Below are positions 10,205 through 34,754 of a DNA stretch of 45,432 bases, in pieces. Origin of the DNA: a virus. The stretch spans positions 1 through 45,432 of the IMG/VR virus record IMGVR_UViG_3300001848_000600; one strand, written 5' to 3'. Under the pieces are notes generated by a model. It did no database searches. It worked only from the letters and a program-made list of their open reading frames with translations, and was not told where the DNA came from. The translations under genes and the position numbers were made by a program. Within the stretch, counting starts at the first letter, position 1. Each line of letters opens with the position of its first letter.

Positions 10205-10212
10205 TATTTATA
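10205..10212 (-). promoter_or_regulatory. Late promoter TATAAATA upstream of the 129-aa gene
   Basis: A perfect TATAAATA on the minus strand overlaps the end of gmhA, 41 bases before ATG 10164. It would allow late transcription of the RNase H/PhoH group. Confidence 0.5.
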
Positions 10213-10786
10213 ATACCAGAGAATTTTTATTCAAAGAATTTAAATATCTCATTTTTTGAGATATAGAATGCAATATCATCATATGAGTATCTTCAACAAC
10301 TCCATAATTTGCAGAAGGAATATGAATAGAAACATCTGCAATTTCTTTTGCTTCTCCACCGGTAAATCCAGTAAGAGCAAAAGTCTTCATTCCTTTTGCT
10401 TTTGCCCTATTCAAACCATTTATAATATTCTTTGAATTGCCGCTTGAAGAAATAGCAATTGCAATATCGTCTGAATTCGCGCCAATAAAATCCAATTGTT
10501 GCGAAAATATTTCATGGTATCCAATATCGTTTGCTATAGCTGTGATCAAAGGCATATTTGAAGATAAACTCACTGCCTTGACTCTTATACCGGTATCGAG
10601 TCTTACGCCTTTGGATATATCGCATACCCAATGTTCGGCAATTGCAGCAGAACCACCATTTCCAAACAAATATACTGTAGGATTTCCTGACAATATCGAA
10701 TTATACAATGTATCTACCGATTCTGCATTGACAAAATGCAATGCAGATGAAATGTTTTGTCTATAAGTTTCAAAATTTGTAATCAT
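10208..10786 (-). CDS. gmhA: Sedoheptulose-7-phosphate isomerase (GmhA-like, SIS domain)
   Basis: 192 residues, the full GmhA length. It converts sedoheptulose 7-phosphate to D-glycero-D-manno-heptose 7-phosphate, the first step of nucleotide-heptose synthesis. Motifs: FGNGGSAAIAEHWVCDISKG, ITAIANDIGYHEIF, AIAISSSGNSKNII and VEDTHMMILHSISQ, placing the SIS fold across the protein and the metal-binding His/Glu residues near the C-terminus. ATGA overlap with hddA upstream shows one operon. A generic sugar-phosphate isomerase is possible, but pairing with HddA favours heptose. Confidence 0.9.
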   Translation of the reverse strand: MITNFETYRQNISSALHFVNAESVDTLYNSILSGNPTVYLFGNGGSAAIAEHWVCDISKGVRLDTGIRVKAVSLSSNMPLITAIANDIGYHEIFSQQLDFIGANSDDIAIAISSSGNSKNIINGLNRAKAKGMKTFALTGFTGGEAKEIADVSIHIPSANYGVVEDTHMMILHSISQKMRYLNSLNKNSLVL

Positions 10787-11757
10787 ATTGTTATAGCGGA
10801 GCTTCCCATATCTGTAAAATTGAAGTGAAATCTTCTATATTCTTTCATTTTCGATTTAACGCTATCTTGATATTTTTGTGGCACATAAAATAACATATAT
10901 CCACCGCCACCAGCACCTAACAATTTACCTCCCAATGCACCAGCAGACATTGCAGTTTCATACATATCGTCTATATGTTCATTTGTAATATTTGGTGCCA
11001 ATTCTCGTTTCAATATCCATCCTTCATGCAACAACGATCCAAAATCGTCAATCTTATTGTGCTTAAGATAATCGATAGATTGTTTTGCCAATTCTACCAT
11101 GATTTTAGTATTTTCAAAGGTTTTACTGTTGGTTGAAATCATGTTTACTTGATTGGACAATATGTCGGATGTTTTTCTTGTAATTCCTGTATTGTAACAC
11201 AATAAATTTTCATTCAATGTTTTAATATTCGAAGTTTTCATTCCCAATGGAATAACTTCTACACCATCGTTATAAAAATGCATTGCATTGAATCCACCAT
11301 ATGCCGCAGCATATTGATCCTGTTTTCCAATGGGTTCTCTACATTTTTCAATTTCGATATCGCAAGCCATTTCAGCCAAATCTTTTTTATTATAATCGTA
11401 TTTCAAATGATTATAAATTCCATTGATTAAACCTACAGTATAAGACGAACTTGAACCTAAACCAGAACCATTTGTCGTTATATCAGAAAAACTTACAATT
11501 TCTATATTCGATTTGACGTTGAAATGCTTCAATATTTCCTTAGCACGAGTATGCTTTACATTTTCAACATCATTTACTTGTTCGAATTCTGAATATATAA
11601 CCTTTATATGTCTAGGTTCGCATTTGTTTATGGCAATTTGAATATGTTTATTTATAGATGTAGATACTACCAATCCTGGCGATTTTTCAAAAAATGCTGG
11701 AATGTCACTTCCTCCACCAAAAAATGACAATCTCAATGGAGTTTTCGTAACAATCAT
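10783..11757 (-). CDS. hddA: D-glycero-D-manno-heptose 7-phosphate kinase (HddA-like GHMP kinase)
   Basis: 324 residues. GHMP signatures: N-terminal TPLRLSFFGGGSDIPAFFE, the ATP-binding GSGLGSSSSYTVGLING, and C-terminal LGGKLLGAGGGGYMLFYVP. CREPIGKQDQYAAAYGG is characteristic of HddA-type kinases, which phosphorylate heptose 7-phosphate at C1. Overlaps its neighbours by 4 bases on both sides. Together with GmhA it gives heptose 1,7-bisphosphate; a GmhB phosphatase is not seen in the cassette and may come from the host. Confidence 0.9.
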   Translation of the reverse strand: MIVTKTPLRLSFFGGGSDIPAFFEKSPGLVVSTSINKHIQIAINKCEPRHIKVIYSEFEQVNDVENVKHTRAKEILKHFNVKSNIEIVSFSDITTNGSGLGSSSSYTVGLINGIYNHLKYDYNKKDLAEMACDIEIEKCREPIGKQDQYAAAYGGFNAMHFYNDGVEVIPLGMKTSNIKTLNENLLCYNTGITRKTSDILSNQVNMISTNSKTFENTKIMVELAKQSIDYLKHNKIDDFGSLLHEGWILKRELAPNITNEHIDDMYETAMSAGALGGKLLGAGGGGYMLFYVPQKYQDSVKSKMKEYRRFHFNFTDMGSSAITI

Positions 11758-12773
11758 CGGCGATTTGTTGTGCTATATGAAAACATCATTTTTGGAATGT
11801 TTCTGTTTTCAGGATTTGGATATATGGAAAGCAATTCCTCAAGCATATCTTTCCATTGATCCGCTATTCGATTTGCATTGTACCTGTAATTGGCATATCC
11901 CTTTTGCAATTGCAATTTGCTTTCCGGAAAATTTTTATTTTGTATAGCCAATATAGCATTTTCCAACTTTTCATAAAACATTCTAGCATGCAACTGTTGA
12001 TCCGCATGGAATTGATACATTTCTGTTAAATTTCCGGATGTATCCGATAGTCCAGCCAAATTGGGATGCACGCAAATACATCCAGATGACATTGCTTCTA
12101 TCAAAGACCTTGAATTGCATTCCATCCATATGGATGGATATGAAAAAATATCAGCGGCGGCAACAGTTTTTCTAACTTCTTCATTTGCAGCATAGCCATG
12201 ATATACAATTTGCGGGTGTTGCCTGCAAGTTTCATATAAAGGCTCGTATTGCTTATCCATTTCTTCCCATCCATAAATTTTGAAACTAGAAAATACATCA
12301 AGATGGATATTGGGATATTTCTTGGCCAATTCGACAAAAACGGGAACAAGTAATGACAAACCTCGTTGAGGAGTCGAAGTATAAACAAGACGAATTTTAC
12401 CATCGTTTGGCTTAGCATCTATAATTTCTTTTTCTGTAAATGGAACTATTGGTGTATCTAAAACAATCAATTTATTGGTTGGTTGTATATTTAACTTAGA
12501 CAAAAACGAATTATATTGCCAATTTCCACAAAAAACAATTTTATGAAATCTGTCTTGACTTGTTTTTTCTTTAAGATGATTTGTTTCAGGATCTTCCGGG
12601 AGATCATGTAAATGATATATACGGATTTTATCATCATTTAAATGAGTAACTCTAGATGGAATGATTTGGAAATCTTCTAGTAAATCAGTTGGCAATAATG
12701 ATTGCAATTGGCGTGATACTTGTTCAGTACCTCCATTAGATTTCTCTTGCATTTCTGTGTAATAAAAACCCAT
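11754..12773 (-). CDS. Glycosyltransferase, GT4/GT-B-like
   Basis: 339 residues. The C-terminal half has IRLVYTSTPQRGLSLL, IVYHGYAANEEVRKTVAAAD and SYPSIWMECNSRSLIEAMSSGC, the GT4 nucleotide-sugar site with the E-x7-E arrangement. The N-terminus has NGGTEQVSRQL. It would transfer a sugar, plausibly the heptose made by this cassette, to an acceptor that cannot be read from sequence (LPS, virion protein or DNA). ATGA overlap with hddA. Confidence 0.85.
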   Translation of the reverse strand: MGFYYTEMQEKSNGGTEQVSRQLQSLLPTDLLEDFQIIPSRVTHLNDDKIRIYHLHDLPEDPETNHLKEKTSQDRFHKIVFCGNWQYNSFLSKLNIQPTNKLIVLDTPIVPFTEKEIIDAKPNDGKIRLVYTSTPQRGLSLLVPVFVELAKKYPNIHLDVFSSFKIYGWEEMDKQYEPLYETCRQHPQIVYHGYAANEEVRKTVAAADIFSYPSIWMECNSRSLIEAMSSGCICVHPNLAGLSDTSGNLTEMYQFHADQQLHARMFYEKLENAILAIQNKNFPESKLQLQKGYANYRYNANRIADQWKDMLEELLSIYPNPENRNIPKMMFSYSTTNRR

Positions 12774-12846
12774 TTTTAAAAAAACTCCATTTTATAATCA
12801 GCTAATATGAAAAGATGGCACTTTGATAGATGTAGAAATTAAAACA
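12774..12846. other. Short intergenic gap in the glycan operon
   Basis: The 73 bases between the epimerase stop and the glycosyltransferase start contain the GGAG for the latter (about 11 bases from its ATG). No promoter or hairpin is evident. Confidence 0.4.
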
Positions 12847-13815
12847 TCATATTTTTCTATACTCCATCGCAGAATTTATCATATAATCTAAATCGTCATG
12901 CAAATAATTGAAACCAGTTTCACGGATAAATTTGTCATTATTTGCCACAAGATATTGTGGATCACCTTCTCTTCTAGGACCAATTTCTGTTTTTATATTT
13001 CCAACCAGTTCTTGAAATTTATTCACGATTTGATTTACAGAAAATCCTTTAGAAGAACCTAAATTGTATGAGTTGAAATAAGGAAATTCTGTTTGTCTTA
13101 AAATATTATCCATGTGTATCATAGCTCTTGCAATATCGATAACATGGACATAATCTCGTATGCAAGTACCATCAGGTGTCATATAATCGTTGCCATTTAT
13201 AATAAATGTTTCAGAATTTTTATAACAATCGATAAGTCTATTTAAAATGTGAGGAGTATTTGGCAATTGTCCTACATCTTCATATGCGCCTGCAACATTG
13301 AAAAATCTAAATGCGACAGATTTCCAATTCATTTTATCGTAACATGACCGAATCATTTGTTCGGTCATAAGTTTCGATAATCCATAATTGTTTGGAGGAA
13401 CAAGAAAACTTATATCTTCATAACAGGCAATATCTGTTATAGCATATGTTGCGGCAGTACTTGCAAAAATAAACCTTCTATCTTTACCAATATTATTCAT
13501 GAGCGATGTAGTTTTAGCAGTATTGTTATTGAAATAAAGCAAAGGATCGAAAGCGCTTGGTCCCAAAAGACTCGATGCCGCTAAATGAAAAACTGTAGCA
13601 TCTTCAAATCTATCTAAAATCGCATTGGTACGAGTGCTTTTTATATCGCACAAAAAGGATTCATCTACATATTTATTTCGTTTATCGTAGATATCGTATA
13701 CCGATCTTGAATCGGTATCTATACCAACAACATAGTAATCGTTTTCTTTGAGAAGTTTGGTCAATACATTTCCAATATAACCAAAATAACCAGTAACTAT
13801 TGCACGTTTTTCCAT
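12847..13815 (-). CDS. NAD-dependent sugar epimerase (GalE-like SDR)
   Basis: 322 residues. The Rossmann start TGYFGYIGNVLTKLLKEND, LAASSLLGPS, FASTAATYA, the catalytic Tyr-Lys in NNYGLSKLMTEQ, and GTCIRDYVHVIDIARA are those of UDP-hexose 4-epimerases. It most likely interconverts a nucleotide sugar used by the neighbouring glycosyltransferase. UDP-glucose/galactose is the usual substrate of this family, but heptose or uronate epimerases look alike. Confidence 0.85.
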   Translation of the reverse strand: MEKRAIVTGYFGYIGNVLTKLLKENDYYVVGIDTDSRSVYDIYDKRNKYVDESFLCDIKSTRTNAILDRFEDATVFHLAASSLLGPSAFDPLLYFNNNTAKTTSLMNNIGKDRRFIFASTAATYAITDIACYEDISFLVPPNNYGLSKLMTEQMIRSCYDKMNWKSVAFRFFNVAGAYEDVGQLPNTPHILNRLIDCYKNSETFIINGNDYMTPDGTCIRDYVHVIDIARAMIHMDNILRQTEFPYFNSYNLGSSKGFSVNQIVNKFQELVGNIKTEIGPRREGDPQYLVANNDKFIRETGFNYLHDDLDYMINSAMEYRKI

Positions 13816-13818
13816 AGA

Positions 13819-14433
13819 TTATTGAATCTCATTCACTTTTGTATAAGTAGCATTTATACTAGTATATCTACCATATTCAGAAATAATATCAGAGCGTATG
13901 AATCCATATTTTGAAAAAATATCGTTCCACCAAGTTTCTTCTTTCAATGTTACATGATAATTTTCATCAGGAAATGTTGCTATACCAACAATAAAATGAC
14001 CATTCATATTGAGATGATTGTTTACATTTATAAACAATTGATGCAAATCTTTTTCATATATATGTTCTAGAACATCGAACGCCGAAATTGCATCGAATTT
14101 TATTATTTGTTCAGAATCATCTACAATTTTAAATGGTTTAGTTATATCTGCCGTAAAAAGATTATGGGGAATATTATTCCATTCTCCAGTTTTATTCTTA
14201 AATCCATAATCGCTACCATCTATGCCAATTGCAAAAATATTATTTTTTATAAATTGCGATACAAATCCACCACCGGCACAACCCAAATCCAAATATTTCA
14301 TGTTTGGGCCCAATTTACGAATCAAATTTCTAACATATAAACCGTTTTTTGTATTATCTTGTTTAGTTCCCTTTGGATTTGTATGATCATAGCTTTCACA
14401 TGCTATTGGAAAATCTGTCAATAATTTATGCAT
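13819..14433 (-). CDS. SAM-dependent methyltransferase (class I)
   Basis: 204 residues. Motif I YLDLGCAGGGFVSQFI, acidic residue at the end of strand 2 (IGIDGSDYG), and FDAISAFDVLEHI followed by NGHFIVGIATFP. This is the 2-polyprenyl/UbiG-type fold common in glycan clusters, where it O-methylates a sugar or lipid. Overlaps the nucleotidyltransferase by 8 bases. The target is unknown. Confidence 0.85.
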   Translation of the reverse strand: MHKLLTDFPIACESYDHTNPKGTKQDNTKNGLYVRNLIRKLGPNMKYLDLGCAGGGFVSQFIKNNIFAIGIDGSDYGFKNKTGEWNNIPHNLFTADITKPFKIVDDSEQIIKFDAISAFDVLEHIYEKDLHQLFINVNNHLNMNGHFIVGIATFPDENYHVTLKEETWWNDIFSKYGFIRSDIISEYGRYTSINATYTKVNEIQ

Positions 14434-14836
14434 TTTTTATCCTTTCTCTAAGTTCCGAAGAACTCCATCCATGTTCACGGGAAAAATAAATCAATCCAAT
14501 TCCCTTATTTTTACAAACGTTTTTGCCGGTAAATTCATTTGAGTTATAATCGTCTCCAAGGAATCTTAAATGTATATCGGTAGTAATCAATATATTGATT
14601 AAATCTTTTTCCGTATCATAAGGAATAATATCATCGACATATTTTGTAGATGATAGTTGCAACCATCTTTCATATAAACTTTGAATCGGTTTATTCTTTT
14701 CTGGTCTTTCTATAGATGGATCGCTATGCAAACCAACTATAAGACGATTGCATTTCATTTTGCATGATTTAAAAAGAGAAATATGCCCTGGATGAAGTAA
14801 ATCGAAAGTACCGCATGTAAAACCAATAGTAGTCAT
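14426..14836 (-). CDS. Cytidylyltransferase-family nucleotidyltransferase (HldE-C/TagD-like)
   Basis: 136 residues. GFTCGTFDLLHPGHISLF gives the HxGH nucleotide-binding site, and the C-terminus WSSSELRERIKNA corresponds to the ISSTxxxxRI motif. Families with this layout include the HldE adenylyltransferase domain (heptose 1-phosphate to ADP-heptose) and glycerol-3-phosphate cytidylyltransferase. Being the first gene of a cassette with gmhA and hddA, a role in activating heptose is the best guess. Confidence 0.8.
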   Translation of the reverse strand: MTTIGFTCGTFDLLHPGHISLFKSCKMKCNRLIVGLHSDPSIERPEKNKPIQSLYERWLQLSSTKYVDDIIPYDTEKDLINILITTDIHLRFLGDDYNSNEFTGKNVCKNKGIGLIYFSREHGWSSSELRERIKNA

Positions 14837-22922: not shown

Positions 22923-23951
22923 CTATGCTTTACTCCAATTATTCAATTCGAATTTAGCCTTTAGATCACGATATGTATGAGTATCGATAACATATTTAAT
23001 GAAGTCAGAACTCAATCCAGACAATATCATATCGTTTACGTCCTTCGACATCATATTCGATGGCCATATACACACATTATAACCATTCATTATAGCTTTG
23101 TCAATCTTTTTTCTTGTGTCTATCGATCTAGGTTCATTGTCATACACTATTACTAAATTTTCTTTAGGAAAATCGGAAATTGCTGATATCAAATCGCCAC
23201 CAGCAGTAGCAATAGAATTAGGAATAAACATCGAATCGATTGGACCTTCGAAAACATAAGTTTTCTTTTTAAGATCGACTTTATCCAAACCATAAATCTT
23301 CGGTATTTCATCATCATAAACAATTGTTATATAACGCATGTTATCTGTTTTAGATAAAGCCCTACCTTGAAATGCATGCAATTTATCGTTATTGATAAAT
23401 GGAATTATCAATCTCGGTTCGTCTCTTTCAATAGAGTTTTCTGAAAATTTATTCGGAATAAAGGAATTTACCCATGTAAAAAACTTTGGACAATAAAAAA
23501 GCTTTGCATGATACAGATTAGGTATCTTTCTACTCTCTATAAATATTTTGCATGTATGATTGTATTTAAGCTGGCTTATCTTTTTGAGGTTAGATAGAGG
23601 ACCAGTCTTTACGTAAAGAGGAACTTTCAGTTTAGCAATCAAATCTTCTAAACCAGATTCAATGCGTTTTTCTTTACCTTGTTCTTTCAACTTCTCTAAG
23701 ACATATTCATGATGAAGCGATTGATCGATTTTATATAAAAATTTATCGAATGTATTGGTAATACCACAATTATGGCAATGATATATTGTATTGCCTTTTT
23801 TCTCGTAAATATAACCTCTTGCTTTATTTTTATTCGTTGCAGAATCACCACACAAAGGACAAGAAAAGTTGAATAGTGTTCCACTTTTTCTTTTATAATT
23901 GTTGAATCTATTTGAAACTAAATTAATATATTTCTGATCTATCCAATTCAT
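22923..23951 (-). CDS. 61: DNA primase (gp61-like, zinc finger plus TOPRIM)
   Basis: 342 residues. The N-terminal zinc ribbon is FSCPLCGDSATN with IYHCHNCGITNTF (Cx2C...Cx2C). The TOPRIM domain follows: YVFEGPIDSMF (catalytic Glu), AGGDLIS and LVIVYDNEPRS (DxD-like). It makes RNA primers for lagging-strand synthesis with the gp41 helicase, which in this phage is encoded as a split gene. The best TTGACA-TATAAT promoter in the window lies just upstream. Confidence 0.93.
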   Translation of the reverse strand: MNWIDQKYINLVSNRFNNYKRKSGTLFNFSCPLCGDSATNKNKARGYIYEKKGNTIYHCHNCGITNTFDKFLYKIDQSLHHEYVLEKLKEQGKEKRIESGLEDLIAKLKVPLYVKTGPLSNLKKISQLKYNHTCKIFIESRKIPNLYHAKLFYCPKFFTWVNSFIPNKFSENSIERDEPRLIIPFINNDKLHAFQGRALSKTDNMRYITIVYDDEIPKIYGLDKVDLKKKTYVFEGPIDSMFIPNSIATAGGDLISAISDFPKENLVIVYDNEPRSIDTRKKIDKAIMNGYNVCIWPSNMMSKDVNDMILSGLSSDFIKYVIDTHTYRDLKAKFELNNWSKA

Positions 23952-26025: not shown

Positions 26026-26199
26026 TCAATCGGAAATGGTATAATCCGAAGTATTTTTATTAGGTGAAAAGCCACTTTGATCTTGGTTTGGACCGCGAAT
26101 GGGAGCAGAAACCACGGTTGGTGGTTCCGGCTCCCGTTTTCTTTTATTATTTTTTGACTTTTCTTTGGATTCATGAATCCATTGACAAAAATTTATCAT
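26026..26199 (-). CDS. Small protein with a capsid-targeting-like N-terminus (57 aa)
   Basis: ATG 26199 overlaps the upstream stop as ATGA. The N-terminus MINFCQWIHES fits the pattern FxxFIxE followed by a small residue, like T4 internal-protein targeting sequences with an (I/L)xE cleavage site. The rest is basic then polar (KRKREPEPPTVVSAPIRG). REPEPPTVVSAP resembles KRETVSAPL of the 57-aa protein at 27655-27828, suggesting paralogy. Function unknown; probably head-packaged. Confidence 0.6.
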   Translation of the reverse strand: MINFCQWIHESKEKSKNNKRKREPEPPTVVSAPIRGPNQDQSGFSPNKNTSDYTISD

Positions 26200-27131
26200 G
26201 CAGCTGGTTCTGTTGGTGTAGAATATTTTGCCATTATTTCTGCATGTCTTCTTTTTGCTTCAATTGCTGCTTTTTCTGCATCGGCATGTGCTTTATCTAT
26301 ATCATATCCAGACTTTTTCAACGCCGTTGACATTCTTTGCTGTGGTGTCTTGCCAGATTTCAATGGTTGTTTAAAAAATCTTGAAGTTTCCGATACTTCG
26401 GTTTCTTCATTGCGTTGTTTTGCATAATATGCTGCAATAGCTTGTTTAGTGCGTTCTTCTTTTGTCTTACCAGCAAATTTTGGATTCTTAGATTTAACAA
26501 AATCATGAATCCATTCCCCAGCTGAAGATGATTTAGTCAAAACTTCATCTACCTGTTCGACTTCTTCTTTTACAGAATCGCATACACAAGGCGATTCTCC
26601 GCACTTCGGACACTTCTTCGATTTATCTTTCTTTTTCTTATCATCCTTTGAATCTTTATCGTTATCGCCATCATTTACAGCATCGTCTGTTGTGGGATTC
26701 AATTCTACTTCCGTCGTTCCACCTTCCAATTCATCAGACGATTTCTTTAAATCTTTCTTTTCCATAATAGATTTAGCAGCAGCAACAAGACTTGCCGATA
26801 AACCAAAATTTGTTGTCAATGCCATTGCTTTATCCTCATCGATGATTTTTGTTTTTATTTGAGCTTGTTTAGACAATTTACTGGATTGAGTAGGTTTTGG
26901 ATCGTTGGGTCTTCCAACATTTTCAATCTTTTCCCTTTTCTCTGAATTAGTTTCTTCTTGTGCCAATTTCAGTGTTTCCTTACTTCTTTTATTCGATTTT
27001 TTCGTTCTTTTTTCTATTTCTTGTTCTCTATTTTTTTCGTTTTCTTTATTTCTCTTTACTATATATTCTTCTTGATCTCTATTTCTTTTAGCACCAACAG
27101 AAATACCTGAAGAAGGATCATGGCTGCTCAT
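26196..27131 (-). CDS. Charged virion-associated protein with a zinc-like knuckle
   Basis: 311 residues from ATG 27131, which has AGGA 8 bases upstream; TTG 27227, overlapping the Dps end, would give 343. The N-terminal 100 residues are Lys/Arg/Glu-rich and helical. KCPKCGESPCVC is a compact Cys cluster. GEWIHDFVKSKNPKFAGKTK and QAIAAYYAKQRNE form a motif I know from other T4-like structural or scaffold-associated proteins. Likely in the head or prohead core. No enzyme motif. Confidence 0.6.
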   Translation of the reverse strand: MSSHDPSSGISVGAKRNRDQEEYIVKRNKENEKNREQEIEKRTKKSNKRSKETLKLAQEETNSEKREKIENVGRPNDPKPTQSSKLSKQAQIKTKIIDEDKAMALTTNFGLSASLVAAAKSIMEKKDLKKSSDELEGGTTEVELNPTTDDAVNDGDNDKDSKDDKKKKDKSKKCPKCGESPCVCDSVKEEVEQVDEVLTKSSSAGEWIHDFVKSKNPKFAGKTKEERTKQAIAAYYAKQRNEETEVSETSRFFKQPLKSGKTPQQRMSTALKKSGYDIDKAHADAEKAAIEAKRRHAEIMAKYSTPTEPAA

Positions 27132-27199
27132 CGATTTTCGTCCTGAGCTGGAGCGATGTCCTTCTATATGATTCTGAGATACAATTTCACTTAAAGATT

Positions 27200-27634
27200 T
27201 CACTTGCTTGTTGCCTTCATCATCCAACCAAGTTTTTCGTGTTTATCCAATCTATCTTGAATAAAATTCGATAAACCCATTTTATTAGCAGATTCTGCCA
27301 ATTTATATGCTTTATTGAGTTCTTCGATCAATATATTGTTGTCCTTTATCAATTCGACAATCATAAGTTTTGCTTGCGGTATATTTATTTGATCTTCTAT
27401 AACCGACAATTCAAGATATCTATTGAGAGAACCTGGAGCATACGAATTCAAAGTTCTTATACGTTCAGCTATAGAATCTACTGCATCGAATGCATCGGTA
27501 TATATTGTTTCAAACAACCCATGATATTGTGGAAAATCGGGTCCTTCTACATTCCAATGGAATGCATGTGCTTTAAGATAATAAGAGAAAGTGCTTGCTA
27601 ATACTACTTTCAATTGTTTTAAAAGATCATTCAT
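27200..27634 (-). CDS. Dps/ferritin-like protein
   Basis: 144 residues. AHAFHWNVEGPDFPQYHGLF and TDAFDAVDSIAERIRTL reproduce the Dps inter-subunit ferroxidase site (H, H, D, E). Dps proteins form dodecamers that oxidise and store iron and shield DNA from Fenton damage. Here the gene lies among virion genes, so it could protect DNA in the infected cell or be linked to the particle. No capsid-targeting sequence is seen. Confidence 0.85.
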   Translation of the reverse strand: MNDLLKQLKVVLASTFSYYLKAHAFHWNVEGPDFPQYHGLFETIYTDAFDAVDSIAERIRTLNSYAPGSLNRYLELSVIEDQINIPQAKLMIVELIKDNNILIEELNKAYKLAESANKMGLSNFIQDRLDKHEKLGWMMKATSK

Positions 27635-27654
27635 ATTTTCATACCTTTGTTATA

Positions 27655-27828
27655 TTATTCGCCTCCACCACCAGAACTACCGCTTTTTCCGGGTGAATGT
27701 TTTTCTATTTTACCATTTGCCATTCTTATTGGAACTAACGGTGCGGAAACAGTTTCTCTCTTTCCTGTAGTTCCTTTGGGAACAGACAATTCCGAGATGA
27801 ATTCTTTAAAATTTACCAAGCGCGGCAT
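27655..27828 (-). CDS. Small protein with a capsid-targeting-like N-terminus (57 aa)
   Basis: ATG 27828 overlaps the end of the upstream gene by 16 bases. MPRLVNFKEFISEL carries FKEFISE, very close to the T4 internal-protein sequence YQEFIAE. KRETVSAPLVPI follows, then a Gly/Ser-rich tail. Same length as the 26026-26199 product and shares the VSAP motif. Predicted to be packaged and processed in the head. Confidence 0.6.
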   Translation of the reverse strand: MPRLVNFKEFISELSVPKGTTGKRETVSAPLVPIRMANGKIEKHSPGKSGSSGGGGE

Positions 27829-28505
27829 GACCAATATCTCGCTTTTGTTTTTGGTCCAGGTGTTTCGCAATGGTGTCTAGCCCTAAAGCTTTTTCTTCTG
27901 GCGGGAATATGTTTCTTGATAGTCATATTAGGATCACCGAAATTTACTTTTTTTATATTTCCGGTAGATGGATCTCTTACATATACTTTAGATTTTTTTA
28001 CATCGCCTTTTGTGGGTTTATTCAATGAAACTTCTTTACCGTGATAATCCGCTTCATAAATTCCCAGCGCTTCTTTTACTATTCGTTTTACTATTTTTGC
28101 GGTTGTTTGTCCAGGAGTTTCATTTTTATAAACATTTACCAATGAATCTGTACCGTCCAATCTTGAATCTGGATCATTCGGATTTATCGATTGTGGTTCC
28201 GGTGTTTCACTGGTTTTACGATGTTTGGATGTTTCATGGGGTTTCTTTATAGGGCGCATATCAGTTTCTTCCGATGCCGATTTGAAATCCGATTCCGTGG
28301 GTCTTCCTTTTTCACCAGGTTTACGCATATGTTCTCCAGAACCTCGTTTTATTCTTTCTCTTTTTGCATGAATATTATCCCATAAACCATGGGTATTTTC
28401 CTCTTTCATTCTTTCTTTCATGTAAGCAGTCATGACTCTTGGCAAACCTTTCTCATCTTTCGGTTTCTTCAATTCATGAGAAAATGGATGTTTAAAATTT
28501 TTCAT
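27813..28505 (-). CDS. Conserved T4-like virion protein with a basic C-terminal domain
   Basis: 230 residues. The first 140 are charged and variable. The C-terminal 80 (EADYHGKEVSLNKPTKGDVK, VYVRDPSTGNIKKVNFGDPN, then KSFRARHHCETPGPKTKARY and WSCRAW) match a strongly conserved domain found in T4-like marine phages, usually in head or core proteins. The conserved Cys/His pattern may bind metal. A perfect TATAAATA lies 21 bases before ATG. Confidence 0.75.
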   Translation of the reverse strand: MKNFKHPFSHELKKPKDEKGLPRVMTAYMKERMKEENTHGLWDNIHAKRERIKRGSGEHMRKPGEKGRPTESDFKSASEETDMRPIKKPHETSKHRKTSETPEPQSINPNDPDSRLDGTDSLVNVYKNETPGQTTAKIVKRIVKEALGIYEADYHGKEVSLNKPTKGDVKKSKVYVRDPSTGNIKKVNFGDPNMTIKKHIPARRKSFRARHHCETPGPKTKARYWSCRAW

Positions 28506-28525
28506 CGAATTACTTTCTTTTTTTA

Positions 28526-30379
28526 TTATTTATAATTTTTACGCCATTCATTCAATATATCGTGTGTAAGTAAAGAAATAGTTTCATTTACTTGTTTTTT
28601 GGGTTTAGGTTGTTGTCCTGTTCTAACATCATTATAAAGTTCTTCTGCATGTTCTGGTTTGATATTTGGAGACAATCCTTGACGAAATTTATTGAAATTT
28701 CCATTTTTTGCATGTTCTCTCATTTTAGATGCTGACATACCAGAAACACCTTCTGCATCTGGATCTCTATGACCAGCAGATACAACATTGATTTGTTTGA
28801 AGTTGAATTCTTTTCCTGGTCCATTATATCTATCTAATAATCTTTTGTATTCATCGACTCTATCCGAACCAGCAACCATAGTAACGTGTGTAACACCTTG
28901 TTTATGCAATTCCTTTAAATGATGCATAAAAGTTGGATTTTCCCTCGTTGCTACACTTATATTTGTATTTGGAAACATTCTTTGTGCATGTTTCAATTTT
29001 TGTTCTGGCGATAAAGGATTTTTATCTGAATCTTGTGTTCTTGAAAGAACAATAGAATGATTTGCGCCATTCAATCTTGCCAATTCTTTTACTTTATCGA
29101 CTAAAGCACCATGACCAACAGTTGGTGGATTCATTCTACCAAATGCAAATACATGATGCTTTTCTTCTTCGTTTATAGGTGCAATTTCAGATTTATCTGT
29201 TTCACCACGACCTCTATTGTTTGCAAAATTATTTCTTGAAAATTCTGCTCTATCGACCAATTTAGTAGGTCTTCCATTGCGTATTGCAACAAATCCCTCT
29301 GGTTTTACAGATTTTCCACCCATAGTATGTTCAAATTCAGTTGGATTTCCTAAAGAATTTACGAGAACATCTTTTGCTTTTTGTATATGATGATGCAAAT
29401 CGAATGCATGACCAAATTGTTCTTGATTGCCTTCTACATCATTTATAAAATTTCCATAATGTTCTATTTTTCTCTGTTTGGCTGAAGGTGTTTTTACTTT
29501 GCTTGCTTCATTGTCTCTTTTTTGTTTTAGAAATTTTACATATTCTTTTGGATTTGGTGTTGTTCCATCTCTGACGGTTTGATTTATGTATTGTTTCATG
29601 TGTTCGGCATGATTGCCTAATTTTTCCATAGTTTCTGGATGTATTTTTTGATAAGATTCTAAAGCATTTTTCTTATGCAATGCAAATTTACTTTGTGCAG
29701 GTTTGGTATAATTGAATGAATGACCAGAATTTATTTCTGGGTTTACTAAATTTACATCTGGGTGTTGTTTGAATTTGCTGTGATCTACATCGAATCCAGC
29801 TTTCATATCTTCAAACTTTTTACCTTTATATTTTGTATGAACTACAAATCCAATTTGTGAATTAGCAATTCTTTTTCCCATACCAGAATTTTTATGGGCA
29901 CCATACGTAATAGTATTTGGAGTAAATTTATACTTATCTCCATCTTTTGTAACGTCGGGTTTTTCATAAAGAAAATCGCCCTGATAAACACCACCTTCAT
30001 TGGGCATTGTTTTTGGTAAATGTTTAAGGGCAGCTTTTAATTTTGCCGCTAGCCCAGGAGCATGACCATGATTTTTGTCTATATCTTCTTCTGTATAATT
30101 TATTTTTGGATTTTTATTAAATGCAGATTTAGATGCTACAAAAAATTTACCAGTTTCTGGATGTTTGCCAAATACAACGCTTGGACTACCATCGTATTTT
30201 ACTGTAATCTTAGATTTTGATTTTTTGCCTGACAATAAATTATGAGCATCTTCCAATGTAGATGCCGCATGTCCTACACCTTCATCCCCACCATGTATTA
30301 TATGATCTTCTGCATGTTCTAAATGCTGAAGTTTATCGACATCCAAGGATTCGGCTAAAAAAGAATAAAAGTTTAACAT
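28526..30379 (-). CDS. Fusion: covalent nucleotidyltransferase (ligase-like) plus NMNAT-like domain, capsid-targeted
   Basis: 617 residues. MLNFYSFLAES is a capsid-targeting-like start with an LAE cleavage site. Residues 50-390 hold ligase-superfamily motifs: KYDGSPSVVFG (KxDG, the AMP-accepting Lys), GGVYQGDFLYE (motif III), GFVVHTKYKG, and VKPEGFVAIRNGRPTKLV (motifs IV and V). Residues 410-560 hold FAFGRMNPPTVGHGALVDKV (HxGH-type nucleotide site) and VAGSDRVDEYKRLL, typical of NMN/cytidylyl adenylyltransferases. It could seal or cap RNA or DNA, or act in NAD metabolism, immediately after injection. Substrates are unknown. A late-like AATAAATA lies 34 bases upstream. Confidence 0.75.
   Translation of the reverse strand: MLNFYSFLAESLDVDKLQHLEHAEDHIIHGGDEGVGHAASTLEDAHNLLSGKKSKSKITVKYDGSPSVVFGKHPETGKFFVASKSAFNKNPKINYTEEDIDKNHGHAPGLAAKLKAALKHLPKTMPNEGGVYQGDFLYEKPDVTKDGDKYKFTPNTITYGAHKNSGMGKRIANSQIGFVVHTKYKGKKFEDMKAGFDVDHSKFKQHPDVNLVNPEINSGHSFNYTKPAQSKFALHKKNALESYQKIHPETMEKLGNHAEHMKQYINQTVRDGTTPNPKEYVKFLKQKRDNEASKVKTPSAKQRKIEHYGNFINDVEGNQEQFGHAFDLHHHIQKAKDVLVNSLGNPTEFEHTMGGKSVKPEGFVAIRNGRPTKLVDRAEFSRNNFANNRGRGETDKSEIAPINEEEKHHVFAFGRMNPPTVGHGALVDKVKELARLNGANHSIVLSRTQDSDKNPLSPEQKLKHAQRMFPNTNISVATRENPTFMHHLKELHKQGVTHVTMVAGSDRVDEYKRLLDRYNGPGKEFNFKQINVVSAGHRDPDAEGVSGMSASKMREHAKNGNFNKFRQGLSPNIKPEHAEELYNDVRTGQQPKPKKQVNETISLLTHDILNEWRKNYK
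28527..28534 (-). promoter_or_regulatory. Late promoter TATAAATA
   Basis: Perfect consensus on the minus strand, overlapping the stop of the 617-aa gene and 21 bases upstream of ATG 28505. Confidence 0.65.
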
Positions 30380-30615
30380 TTATACATCTCTATGAAGTTT
30401 ATATTTCTTATATATTTATTTTTTTCTGTTGATATCAAAACTTCTTTTATTATAGCGTCTATATTATCTTTCCAATAATTCAAAAATTTATGAACTTTTG
30501 GTATTTCTGGTAAAATGTCTTCCGTTTGCCATATAAATTCCTGAACAAGACTATAATGTGGAATATAATATAATATATCTATTGTTATCAAATAATTTTT
30601 TTTGATAATAAACAA
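30373..30615 (-). CDS. Conserved T4-like hypothetical protein (about 80 aa)
   Basis: ITIDILYYIPHYSLVQEFIW, QTEDILPEIPKVHKFLNYWK and DNIDAIIKEVLIS resemble a conserved short family in marine T4-like phages. There is no ATG: candidates are TTG 30615 or TTG 30591, the latter just before ITIDILYY. No good ribosome-binding site is visible. It overlaps the next gene by 7 bases. Function unknown. Confidence 0.6.
   Translation of the reverse strand: MFIIKKNYLITIDILYYIPHYSLVQEFIWQTEDILPEIPKVHKFLNYWKDNIDAIIKEVLISTEKNKYIRNINFIEMYKC
30413..30420 (-). promoter_or_regulatory. Late-like promoter AATAAATA
   Basis: AATAAATA on the minus strand, 34 bases upstream of the 617-aa gene and within the preceding small gene. 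One mismatch to consensus. Confidence 0.35.
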
Positions 30616-30621
30616 TTTAAA

Positions 30622-31830
30622 TTATTTTTCGTCGAGTTTTATATTACCAGAGCGACCATTTCCTTTGGGTAATGCAACTCTCATTGGGGGTCCATCGTGA
30701 TCTAATTCATCGACATGTTTTGCAGAAGCATTTAATTTGTTATCACCCGATTTAACAAGATAACTTGCTGTGCCTTCAGGACCTTCAAATTTTCCTTCAC
30801 CTGTAGTAGCTTCTCTTCTCACAAAACCATTCAATTTTGGATGATCTTCATGAAGTTTATCTAATATAGATTGTGCCTTTTTCCTATGTTCTTCTTGTTC
30901 TTCTTTAGAAGCATTTTTCATATTATTCAAGTGCTTCGACACTGTTTTCATTCTATTCATTATATCATTATGAATTTCTTGTCTTTGTTTTTCATTATGA
31001 TTACGATAATCGGGGTGTGAAGATAACATTTGATTTGTGGCATGATGAACGACGGCAGAAGATTCTTCTGGACCAGCAGACATAAGTTGTGATCCACCAC
31101 CCTTTTTCATTGAAATCCTAACGCCTTCTGTTCCATCGCCATTTGGATTTCTTAAAACTAAATCAGCTTTCGATGTTGCCGAAGAAGCTCCATATTTTCC
31201 CCACAATGAAGATAATTTAGATTTAGATGCACCTGCAACACTGGCTCTATAACCTTTTTTAACAGCATCTTTCAATTTTGGATGATTACGCAACGCAATA
31301 ATACTACCTACAGCTGTATGCAATTCCTTATGATAGGAATCTTTATGGTCTTCGGTTTTTTTACCACCTGAAAATCCATCATTTTCTGCATTGGAAAAAT
31401 GTAAAGGATGATTTTTATCATTTTTTGCTTTTTCTATTTCTTGATGCAATTTTTCTTCTGTATCTATACCATGATCTATCGCATAATTCCATATTTTTGT
31501 ATGTGCATGTTCATCATTGTATGTTGGTGATTTTCCTTTTGGTTTTTTCAATTTACTCATAGGTATGGTTATTTTATTTCCGTCATCTTTACTAACAACA
31601 ACATGATGAATACCTTTATCATCTATTTGATGACTATGCAATGTTACTCTATCTCCAGGATTGAATTCACCAATTTTACTTGATATTTCATGAGTACCAT
31701 CGCCAGTATGTCTTGAACCTCCTGGCAAATATGGTTTAATATATTTTTCATGATCGTAATTAGCTCTATTTCCACTGGATGTCAAATTAGCTTCGGATAT
31801 AAGAAATTTCAATTGTTTAGCTGTGATCAT
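30622..31830 (-). CDS. Capsid-targeted protein with a nuclease-like core
   Basis: 402 residues. MITAKQLKFLISEA fits the targeting/cleavage pattern (ISE then Ala). The central block SSATSKADLVLRNPNGDG, VRISMKKGGGSQLMSAGPEE has the D...(x)K spacing of PD-(D/E)XK-type nucleases (ADLVL, then ISMKKG). The rest is His/Lys-rich and helical, as expected for a protein condensed with DNA. Nuclease activity is a hypothesis. Packed tightly between the HAD gene and a small gene. Confidence 0.65.
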   Translation of the reverse strand: MITAKQLKFLISEANLTSSGNRANYDHEKYIKPYLPGGSRHTGDGTHEISSKIGEFNPGDRVTLHSHQIDDKGIHHVVVSKDDGNKITIPMSKLKKPKGKSPTYNDEHAHTKIWNYAIDHGIDTEEKLHQEIEKAKNDKNHPLHFSNAENDGFSGGKKTEDHKDSYHKELHTAVGSIIALRNHPKLKDAVKKGYRASVAGASKSKLSSLWGKYGASSATSKADLVLRNPNGDGTEGVRISMKKGGGSQLMSAGPEESSAVVHHATNQMLSSHPDYRNHNEKQRQEIHNDIMNRMKTVSKHLNNMKNASKEEQEEHRKKAQSILDKLHEDHPKLNGFVRREATTGEGKFEGPEGTASYLVKSGDNKLNASAKHVDELDHDGPPMRVALPKGNGRSGNIKLDEK

Positions 31831-31834
31831 GGAT

Positions 31835-32458
31835 TCAATGCCTTGTTGTTACTACTATTGTTTTTCTGGTATATGGATTATGTTTAACTAGATGCGAATA
31901 CAATTTCACATCGGGATGTTCCAATTTCAATTTAGCAAATTCTTTATGGTTACCTTCATCGTCATCATAAAGATGCACCTCTTTCAATTTATCTCGTTTA
32001 ATTAAATCCGATAAAACTCTTCTTTTTCGATCTCCAGTAGATGTGCCTTCTACATTTCCAGCCCTTCTCAAATGTGTTTTATCTATATCTATACCATATC
32101 TTTTTAAATGATGTTTGACTGCCAGTTTATCGTCTAAATCCGATCTAGCTGTAAGTATTTCTGTTCTATTTCCTCTTTGGCGAAGTTTATTCAATCTATT
32201 TATCATCGAACGAATTGGAGTTCCGGATTTACGCAATACTTTTGCAGATTTAAATTCACCAAAATCATATTTGTGACCTAAAGGCAATTTATGTTTATTG
32301 AATTCCTGTGTGGTTAAACTTCTAACTCTATTACCGTTGCTATCTATAACGTGAATTTTAATTTTATGAGGATCGTGGTGTATCAATGTATCATCTAAAT
32401 CGAAGAAAAAAGCTTTATTTCGTATACCCTCAGTTATAAATTCTTTGAAAGAAATCAT
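31835..32458 (-). CDS. Capsid-targeted HAD-superfamily phosphatase
   Basis: 207 residues from ATG 32458, with AAAGGA upstream; a TTG one codon earlier is less likely. MISFKEFITEG is nearly identical in pattern to T4 internal-protein targeting (EFIAEA). FFFDLDDTLIHHD is HAD motif I (catalytic Asp), ILTARSD motif II, and VHLYDDDEGNHKEF the acidic motif IV. Substrate unknown: nucleotide, polynucleotide 3'-end or sugar phosphate are all possible. Likely acts in the newly infected cell. Confidence 0.75.
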   Translation of the reverse strand: MISFKEFITEGIRNKAFFFDLDDTLIHHDPHKIKIHVIDSNGNRVRSLTTQEFNKHKLPLGHKYDFGEFKSAKVLRKSGTPIRSMINRLNKLRQRGNRTEILTARSDLDDKLAVKHHLKRYGIDIDKTHLRRAGNVEGTSTGDRKRRVLSDLIKRDKLKEVHLYDDDEGNHKEFAKLKLEHPDVKLYSHLVKHNPYTRKTIVVTTRH

Positions 32459-32550: not shown

Positions 32551-33129
32551 ATGATTGATATTTATAATTCATCAGATTACAGAAAAATTTTCATGAAAAC
32601 ATATGGTTCTATACCTAAAGACAAGGACGGTAGATCATATGAAATTCATCATATAGATGGAAATAATTCAAATAATTCTCCAGAAAATTTGAAAGCTGTT
32701 TCTATAGAAGAACATTATTATATTCATTTGTCTCAAGGTGATTATGGCGCTTGTTTATTAATATCAAGTAGAATGACTACAACACCAGAAGAAAAGAGCA
32801 ATTTGGCTAGATCTCATGTCATTAAACAACTTGAAGAAAATAGACATCCATGGAAAACAGACTCATATCGTGAATCTCAAAGACTAAGAGCTTTATCAGA
32901 AAATAATCCATTTCTTGGAGGTGAAATTCAAAGAAAAAGTAGTAGAAAACGTGTAAGGGAAGGCACACATCATCTTTTAGGCGATAAAACAAATTTTAAT
33001 ATGATTAAAGAAGGTAAGCATCCATCTCAAAAAATATGGACATGCGAACATTGTGATATTATCGGTAAAGGAACAACTAATTATATTAGATGGCATGGTA
33101 ATAATTGCAAAAAATTAATAAAAAAATAA
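32551..33129 (+). CDS. HNH homing endonuclease (free-standing)
   Basis: 192 residues on the strand opposite its neighbours, with its own late promoter and AGGAG 8 bases from ATG. YEIHHIDGNNSNNSPENLKA is the HNH core and EHYYIH follows. The C-terminus WTCEHCDIIGKGTTNY and WHGNNCKK is a putative zinc finger. Such enzymes cleave phage genomes lacking the insertion and spread by recombination repair. It separates the HAD gene from a candidate RNA gene. Confidence 0.85.
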   Translation: MIDIYNSSDYRKIFMKTYGSIPKDKDGRSYEIHHIDGNNSNNSPENLKAVSIEEHYYIHLSQGDYGACLLISSRMTTTPEEKSNLARSHVIKQLEENRHPWKTDSYRESQRLRALSENNPFLGGEIQRKSSRKRVREGTHHLLGDKTNFNMIKEGKHPSQKIWTCEHCDIIGKGTTNYIRWHGNNCKKLIKK

Positions 33130-33493: not shown

Positions 33494-34696
33494 CTATGCA
33501 AATCCTTCAAATTTCTTAGAAAATTTAGACCTATTTTGAAAAAATTCATTATCTCGTTGACCATATTCTGTTTTATCCATAATTGGAATGTCGTCCTGTA
33601 TATTCTCCTGTTCTGTTTGATCTACATCGTATAATTTCATTTTCGATCTATCGATACCGATAACAAATCGGCGATTTTTAGATAAATCGCTGTATCTATT
33701 TTTAAGTTGTTTTACCATAATTTGATTGAACGATTCTAACTGTTCATTGCTAATAAGAGCAAACATCAAATCGGCAGTCGCAGGTAATCCGAAACTTTCC
33801 GAAACATCTGTCAAAACGACATCGGACGACGCATACCCACTTCTTGTTGTTTGTGTAGCTGTAACTATAGGAAGATCGTGTTCAACAGCTAAACCACGAA
33901 ATTCTTCCGCAATAGCCTTTACATAAGTATAACTATTTACCGACGCGGTATATTTTACTCGGCTAGAAGCACAAATATTGAGATAATCGATATAAATGAT
34001 ATCTGGAATAAAATTCTTTTTCAATTTCAATTCATTCAATAAATGTCTGAAATTTGCTGCACCAGCAGTAGACGTTGGATATTCTTTGATAATAAGCTTA
34101 CCAACAGTTTTCTTTTTTACCCTATCGATTTTTTTCATGAAAGAATCTTTTGGAACGGTTTCAATTTCATCCAAAGACATATCCAATAGATTTGCATCGA
34201 TACGTTCTGCAATTCTTTCTTCAGCCATTTCCATAGTAATATAAAGAACATTTTTACCATCAAGCAAATTGCTAGCGGCAAAATGACACATCGCAAGACT
34301 TTTCCCAACACCGGTATTATGGCTTGAAATTCCATTAGTATAATATCTATGATTTTCATGTTCTACATTAATATCTACGATAGGAATTATATTGCCGGTA
34401 TAACGAACAGCTCCCCTTTCAAATCCATTTTTTGTTAAAAAATTTGCATATTCAATTTTAGATAATTGTAGCGCGCTTATCCATCCATTATCAGTTTCAA
34501 ATAAATGTTCTGCATTGCATAATACAGATTCACTATTATTTTCCAACTGAAGGCTGTATTCTTCATAAATTCCCTTATCGATAAAGAAATTTACTCCTAC
34601 CCATCCATCGGGAGAATCTACTTCAATTTCATAATTTTCTTCTAACATGGTTTTTATTTTACTGATAGGGATTTCAATTTCAGTCCAAATTTTCAT
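33494..34696 (-). CDS. 41: Replicative helicase gp41, C-terminal part, fused to C-intein
   Basis: 400 residues from ATG 34696 (AGGAG upstream). Residues 1-127 are an intein C-fragment: block B VLCNAEHLFETDNGW (like gp41-1 inteins), block F IVDINVEHENHRYYTNG and block G SSHN, followed by +1 Thr. Residues 128-400 are the RecA-like core of a DnaB/gp41 helicase beginning in the P-loop TGVGKSLAMCHF, with ITMEMAEERIAERI, IIYIDYLNIC (Walker B), TATQTTRSG and MKQLKNRYSD-like arginine region. Splicing to the N-part would rebuild AGTGVGKS and a 468-residue helicase, close to T4 gp41 (475). Confidence 0.93.
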   Translation of the reverse strand: MKIWTEIEIPISKIKTMLEENYEIEVDSPDGWVGVNFFIDKGIYEEYSLQLENNSESVLCNAEHLFETDNGWISALQLSKIEYANFLTKNGFERGAVRYTGNIIPIVDINVEHENHRYYTNGISSHNTGVGKSLAMCHFAASNLLDGKNVLYITMEMAEERIAERIDANLLDMSLDEIETVPKDSFMKKIDRVKKKTVGKLIIKEYPTSTAGAANFRHLLNELKLKKNFIPDIIYIDYLNICASSRVKYTASVNSYTYVKAIAEEFRGLAVEHDLPIVTATQTTRSGYASSDVVLTDVSESFGLPATADLMFALISNEQLESFNQIMVKQLKNRYSDLSKNRRFVIGIDRSKMKLYDVDQTEQENIQDDIPIMDKTEYGQRDNEFFQNRSKFSKKFEGFA

Positions 34697-34710
34697 TAAA
34701 AAATTTCTCC

Positions 34711-34754
34711 TATAAATAATATTGTAGATCGCGATGCTACCAACATCCATCTAC
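34711..34754 (+). promoter_or_regulatory. Late promoter and leader hairpin of the second homing endonuclease
   Basis: Plus-strand TATAAATA at 34711-34718, then GTAGAT 34724-34729 pairing with ATCTAC 34749-34754. The loop shares CGCG, TGC and CATCC with the first endonuclease leader, and AAGGAG follows. Confidence 0.55.

Follow-up and report, generated by a model that had tools for sequence, protein, structure and literature searches.

The N-terminal capsid-targeting sequence (CTS) of phage T4 internal proteins is a bipartite signal. Mutational work on T4 IPIII assigned targeting mainly to residues 4 and 7 and processing to residues 8 and 10, and the prohead protease gp21 cleaves after (L/I)-x-E in T4 (PMC9026906). 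In cyanophages, an NMNAT-like protein of S-SM1 (T4-GC190) was detected in purified virions (PMC3037559). Here, a block of genes on the minus strand is described at positions 26026-32458 of the window, that is, the whole stretch of 45,432 nt taken from IMG/VR record IMGVR_UViG_3300001848_000600 of a T4-like aquatic phage. Five open reading frames (ORFs) of this block open with a CTS-like tag, four clearly and one (31830) weakly, and these tags very probably direct their proteins to the head and to processing by gp21. The presence of the tag, the conservation of its functional positions and the virion location of tagged homologs are supported by sequence together with the published proteomes of relatives; in this phage itself, the proteins would be expected to be cleaved.

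Distribution and conservation of the tag

The strict form of the tag is M-x-x-[F/Y]-x-x-[aromatic: F/Y/W]-[L/I]-x-E, with a predicted cut after E10 (cuts are marked below by a bar). All five N-terminal peptides that an earlier, sequence-only reading had grouped by a shared pattern are present on the minus strand as placed, the 31830 peptide being a loose fit and the 27828 peptide fitting after four extra residues (MPRL). In the window, the strict pattern occurs at 4/277 starts, with 0.18 expected (P ~4e-5), and all four matches lie inside the block, spread over 6.3 kb. Further tagged proteins, which that reading had suggested looking for, come from relatives. In eight of them, with internal start codons as background and candidate N-terminal starts as foreground, the pattern is found at 21/4,380 starts (2.8 expected, Poisson P ~4e-12) and after 7/10,913 internal start codons, placing N-terminal matches ~7-fold above background. 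Phage C48C1 has six tagged genes in the corresponding block, between 57 and 68 kb, and one extra match at 22 kb that looks like noise. A strict-pattern search of HTVC008M returned no matches because its tag forms are shifted (MLSFTGYSNLSEA). The block recurs with 100% identity in a sister contig of 75.7 kb (G001), part of which is matched by the window.

Homologs were chosen by their domains only, and their start codons were picked without reference to the motif before N-terminal columns were compared. Aromatic residues at 4 and 7, L/I at 8 and E at 10 are much commoner than in other columns, positions 2, 3, 5, 6 and 9 being variable. Some homologs have one additional residue between the aromatic pair and LxE, as expected if the two signals are separable. 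Mature domains start shortly downstream of the E, and cyanophage DUF6267 proteins that lack the tag begin almost directly at the domain. The ~10-residue N-terminal tag that marks CTS-bearing internal head proteins is clear in four of the five block proteins and weak in the 31830 protein.

T4 itself served as a control. A position-specific scoring matrix trained on environmental phages only, with T4 left out, was applied to 272 T4 ORFs; it ranked IPII and IPIII second and third and placed gp61.1 (MKTFKEFIKE|D) at the top. The gp61.1 gene adjoins the primase gene, which is also where the block is found, and the protein aligns to the gp23 cleavage junction with 17/37 identical residues, a score as good being reached by 0/2000 tail shuffles. 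Another T4 ORF, at ~114210 (+) of NC_000866, has a tag-like start, MLLEFKQFLYE|AS.

The gp21 protease, for which the sequence-only reading had proposed a search, was looked for directly in the 45-kb window and the 75.7-kb sister contig and was not found, because these contigs end before the head genes; all near-complete relatives have it, and gp21 (family S77) is present in every searched record of at least 140 kb, as well as in one 54-kb relative. The major capsid protein gp23 has the same type of cut site at the expected place in C48C1 (GGFLTE|T) and Melnitz (AFLSE|A).

Tagged proteins in cyanophage virions

NMNAT-like counterparts are tagged in four cyanophages whose published virion proteomes contain them: S-SM1, S-SZBM1, S-SCSM1 and S-CREM2. 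T4-GC190 of S-SM1 starts MKKFSAFLNE|A, and its type comprises 80 related loci with 13 distinct N-termini, the tag being kept in 13/13. In S-SZBM1, the NMNAT-like gp140 (MRFRQFIIE|A) is on the virion list, and the adjoining gp141, an untagged DUF6267 protein, is absent from it. The S-SCSM1 NMNAT (MKSFLQFLKE|A) is the top tag match of its genome and is annotated as a virion protein from mass spectrometry; six further proteins of the gp41-gp61 block carry the same label. In S-CREM2, the NMNAT-like cytidylyltransferase (MKNFSSFLTE|A) was virion-detected, a S-adenosylmethionine hydrolase, a kinase and the small gp13 are both tagged and virion-associated, and a Cas9-like virion-associated protein has a similar site at ~residue 25. 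Identification of the peptides as a T4-type targeting tag, as first proposed from the letters of the block, is therefore well supported by the shared register and key residues, the T4 control, gp21 in relatives and these detections. A literature search, with subscription papers outside its scope, found no paper linking the CTS to cyanophages, save one T4 review holding both terms.

S-CREM2 also has a second virion-associated cluster, gp12-gp15 (L252), far from its gp61 region; its members, a Cas9-like protein, a kinase and two small proteins, begin with a tag or with a sequence resembling one. Its gp156 (L253, 12013-12726), a virion-detected protein with a nucleotidyltransferase domain, starts MKKLISE|L, and the tag is canonical (MLKFTEFLNE|R) in a protein of similar appearance from another contig (L023, 3263).

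Proteins and layout of the block

Table 1. Features of the block, its boundaries and the T4 candidate
Feature	Coordinates	Strand	Tag or start	Remarks
gp41-type DnaB-like helicase	33494..34750	-		Upstream block boundary; PHROG 19, 4e-75
HAD-superfamily phosphatase	31835..32458	-	MISFKEFITE|G	Predicted cut after E10
Cargo protein with SH3/Tudor-like module and HTVC008M gp126-family C-terminal domain	30622..31830	-	MITAKQLKFLISE|A	Weak tag
DUF6267 fused to NadD/NMNAT-like nucleotidyltransferase	28526..30379	-	MLNFYSFLAE|S	
Basic protein	27813..28505	-	No clear tag here	GLWDNIHAKRERIK..., HVA1-like C-terminus
Small protein	27655..27828	-	(MPRL)VNFKEFISE|LSVP...	Conserved tail GTTGKR..RMASGKIEKHPPGKSGSSGGGG
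Small protein	26026..26199	-	MINFCQWIHE|S	Tail VVSAPIRGPNQDQSG..DYTISD
gp61-type primase	22923..23951	-		Downstream block boundary; by translation reading and synteny
T4 gp61.1	NC_000866 18966-19130	-	MKTFKEFIKE|D, CTS-like	Locus L291; 54 amino acids

The protein at 32458 had been labelled a HAD phosphatase, and this label holds: a DxDxT motif begins 10 residues past the predicted cut, the closest PHROG is a polynucleotide kinase (8e-14), and Pfam HAD_SAK_1 matches at 7e-4, below the curated cut-off. Comparison with annotated phages gave no match, relatives occurring only in IMG/VR. Homologs above 42% identity nearly all keep the tag, sometimes shifted by one residue.

The largest product had been taken for a fusion of a ligase and a nucleotidyltransferase. 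The second half of this label is borne out: the C-terminal domain has a NadD/NMNAT-like fold (Foldseek to NadD, 3e-5), its GRxNPPTxGH...SxxxxR motif is conserved, with the (T/H)xGH and SxxxxR signatures of the family, and Pfam CTP_transf_like is found in 20/22 members. The N-terminal part matches DUF6267 at 1e-101 and has invariant KxDG and EGxV followed by a lysine, motifs reminiscent of ligases. An HMM (hidden Markov model) search of the PDB, a Pfam scan of 22 members, hhalign against T4 Rnl1, Rnl2 and gp30, and Foldseek all gave no match to ligases, so that neither homology nor fold confirms the first half, which is kept as a suggestion at the level of motifs. Cyanophages, Melnitz and C48C1 encode DUF6267 and the nucleotidyltransferase in two genes; in this phage the domains are fused.

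The tag of the 31830 protein is weak taken alone, ~1.1% of internal glutamates scoring equally well; the canonical form occurs among its family members. The C-terminal domain belongs to the HTVC008M gp126 family (profile E 1e-22), an SH3/Tudor-like module lies at ~55-95 by a weak fold match, and the N-terminal module is joined to C-terminal domains that vary among contigs. The earlier description as nuclease-like finds a counterpart in a PD-(D/E)xK-like D-x(n)-SxK pattern of the C-terminal domain, in which D223 is invariant and S240-x-K242 nearly so. A structure model gives a beta-beta-beta-alpha order with no significant PDB match, and Foldseek returned nothing besides the weak SH3/Tudor-like module; the fold does not confirm a nuclease, which is suggested by the pattern.

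The two proteins of ~57 amino acids at 27828 and 26199 match no Pfam or PHROGs family, and their ORFs are very likely real genes because homologs keep the tag. The ATG of the 26199 gene overlaps the upstream stop (ATGATAA), and tagged homologs start MIKKYKEWLLE|S (L044) and MIKFRSWLIE|A (L310). The 27828-type tail (E|LSVPxGTTGKR...GKSGSSGGGG) occurs at 50 related loci, the window's own phage not counted. Many contigs place the canonical tag before it, and others have quite dissimilar domains there. The junction E is mostly kept, and the E|LSVP junction is conserved in most loci while the upstream module swaps. Homologous domains of the basic protein are directly tagged in relatives (L024, MMLSFSEFITE|K). 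An untagged Dps/ferritin-like protein (Pfam Ferritin, 3e-22) also lies inside the block, at 27200-27634.

The order gp41-block-gp61 is also found in S-PM2, P-RSM6, S-SCSM1 and S-SM1. The N-terminal 145 residues of the gp41-like helicase ORF are non-helicase and end in '...ISSHNTGVGKS', resembling the C-terminal end of an intein, with an HNH endonuclease ORF close by on the opposite strand (32551-33129). Elsewhere in the window, translations read at 10208-14836 suggest a SIS-domain isomerase, a GHMP kinase, a glycosyltransferase, an epimerase, a methyltransferase and a cytidylyltransferase, a set that resembles heptose or lipopolysaccharide synthesis genes. A PADLOC scan gave nothing useful.

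Proposed mechanism and alternative readings

The products of the block would be internal head proteins, each with a bipartite T4-type CTS of ~10 residues. The aromatics at 4 and 7 would steer the protein into the prohead core, gp21 would cut (L/I)-x-E at 8-10, and the mature cargo, starting at the next residue, would remain in the head beside the DNA and enter the host at infection. Tagged proteins are found inside related virus particles, and for this reason, and by analogy with T4, the cargo is probably injected with the DNA as ready-made, early-acting enzymes. Besides its most widespread member, the NMNAT-like enzyme (here fused to DUF6267), it would comprise a HAD phosphatase, a PD-(D/E)xK-like protein and a pair of small peptides. 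With a modular tag and cargo that turns over by lineage, the locus may act as a loading dock for such enzymes.

Several points weigh against this proposal. For this phage, the virion location is transferred from tagged cyanophage homologs, and the gp21 gene lies outside this contig. Published virion proteomes of relatives report no cleavage at the tag sites, and tagged S-CREM2 gp175 and S-SZBM1_191 are absent from virion detections. Genome-wide association between motif and virion location in S-CREM2 is modest (Fisher P 0.017 and 0.08 at score thresholds of 6 and 8), the majority of virion proteins being structural, with no need of a tag, and some tagged ORFs being undetected. A clade of 32458 homologs at 34-38% identity lacks the cleavable E and keeps F..F[VIL]. 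In addition, possible carry-over in CsCl preparations is acknowledged by the authors in two of the proteome papers (PMC10665884, PMC9602691). On such an explanation the virion-detected NMNAT-like homologs would be an abundant cytoplasmic enzyme and the tag a relic, and cytidylyltransferase peptide counts are indeed low (2-3 in two phages). Independent detection in four phages, retention of the tag in every distinct N-terminus of the S-SM1 type and the six other S-SCSM1 block proteins labelled as virion proteins nevertheless make carry-over quite improbable.

T4 IPIII is tied to head morphogenesis, its host role being only partly known, and the tagged proteins could likewise be packaged as core, scaffold or DNA-condensing parts of the head, with an enzymatic role in the host secondary or lost. 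The low complexity of the two small peptides and the resemblance of tagged gp61.1 to the gp23 cleavage junction would fit such a role, which is nonetheless unlikely: catalytic motifs are kept across divergent homologs (HAD DxDxT, NMNAT-like GRxNPPTxGH...SxxxxR, DUF6267 KxDG/EGxV/K), and the cargo varies by lineage, unlike conserved core proteins. The chance is very slight that the motif is a generic amphipathic segment that has nothing to do with head targeting, for instance a docking helix or an oligomerisation arm. The motif is short and AlphaFold places a low-confidence helix at residues 4-12, but its T4 register and functional positions are exact, it retrieves the T4 internal proteins, tagged homologs are virion-detected, and upstream modules swap at the conserved E junction.

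The function of the cargo as a whole finds weak support, the HAD and NMNAT-like assignments being those that hold up. A joint role in maintaining NAD+ (nicotinamide adenine dinucleotide) or nucleic-acid ends in the first minutes of infection is a reasonable guess. A fuller version, in which the gp41-gp61 locus delivers changing enzymes behind one swappable tag and the cargo maintains NAD+ and heals nucleic-acid ends before phage transcription, is put forward tentatively. Such cargo might blunt NAD-depleting or nucleic-acid-cutting defences, for example through an NMNAT-like domain remaking NAD+ from NMN (nicotinamide mononucleotide) for, or alongside, a ligase-like partner. A part played against host defences, which the sequence-only reading had raised, would likewise be argued from the T4 analogy.

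Comparison with known systems

The T4 CTS is known; what is new is its apparent extension, in aquatic T4-like phages, to a modular block for the delivery of enzymes, and the CTS reading is well supported. The NMNAT-like enzyme has repeatedly been found in cyanophage virions, and two papers left undecided whether its packaging is genuine. A T4-type tag on exactly these proteins would explain how packaging works and allow it to be tested simply from sequence. It would then be possible to predict from sequence which proteins many T4-like phages inject, the T4 candidate gp61.1 included, and natural tags would be supplied for loading proteins into the heads of phages of aquatic bacteria.

The block proteins are most like T4 IPII and IPIII (CTS MKTYQEFIAE|A, cut by gp21), with which they share the register, the aromatics at 4 and 7, I/L at 8, E at 10 and the use of an N-terminal tag on proteins that are not otherwise related; an S77 protease is expected to cleave here as well. 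They differ in that the cargo includes large multi-domain enzyme-like proteins and in that the genes lie together between gp41 and gp61, in aquatic phages rather than coliphages. The T4 ADP-ribosyltransferase Alt is likewise a head-carried enzyme that is cut by gp21 and injected, but its propeptide is different and shorter, it acts on RNA polymerase, and no Alt homology was seen in the block. P1 Dar and the ejection proteins of phiKZ and SPN3US are also packaged in the head and delivered with the DNA, some being cut by prohead proteases (PMC9026906), although their propeptides and cleavage motifs are other ones. The cyanophage NMNAT/cytidylyltransferase (T4-GC190) of S-SM1, S-SZBM1, S-SCSM1 and S-CREM2 has a homologous domain, a tagged N-terminus and a place in the virion, and in the first three phages it shares the gp41-gp61 neighbourhood. 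There a tagged gene of its own encodes it, whereas here the domain follows DUF6267 in a fusion protein that has the tag at its start.

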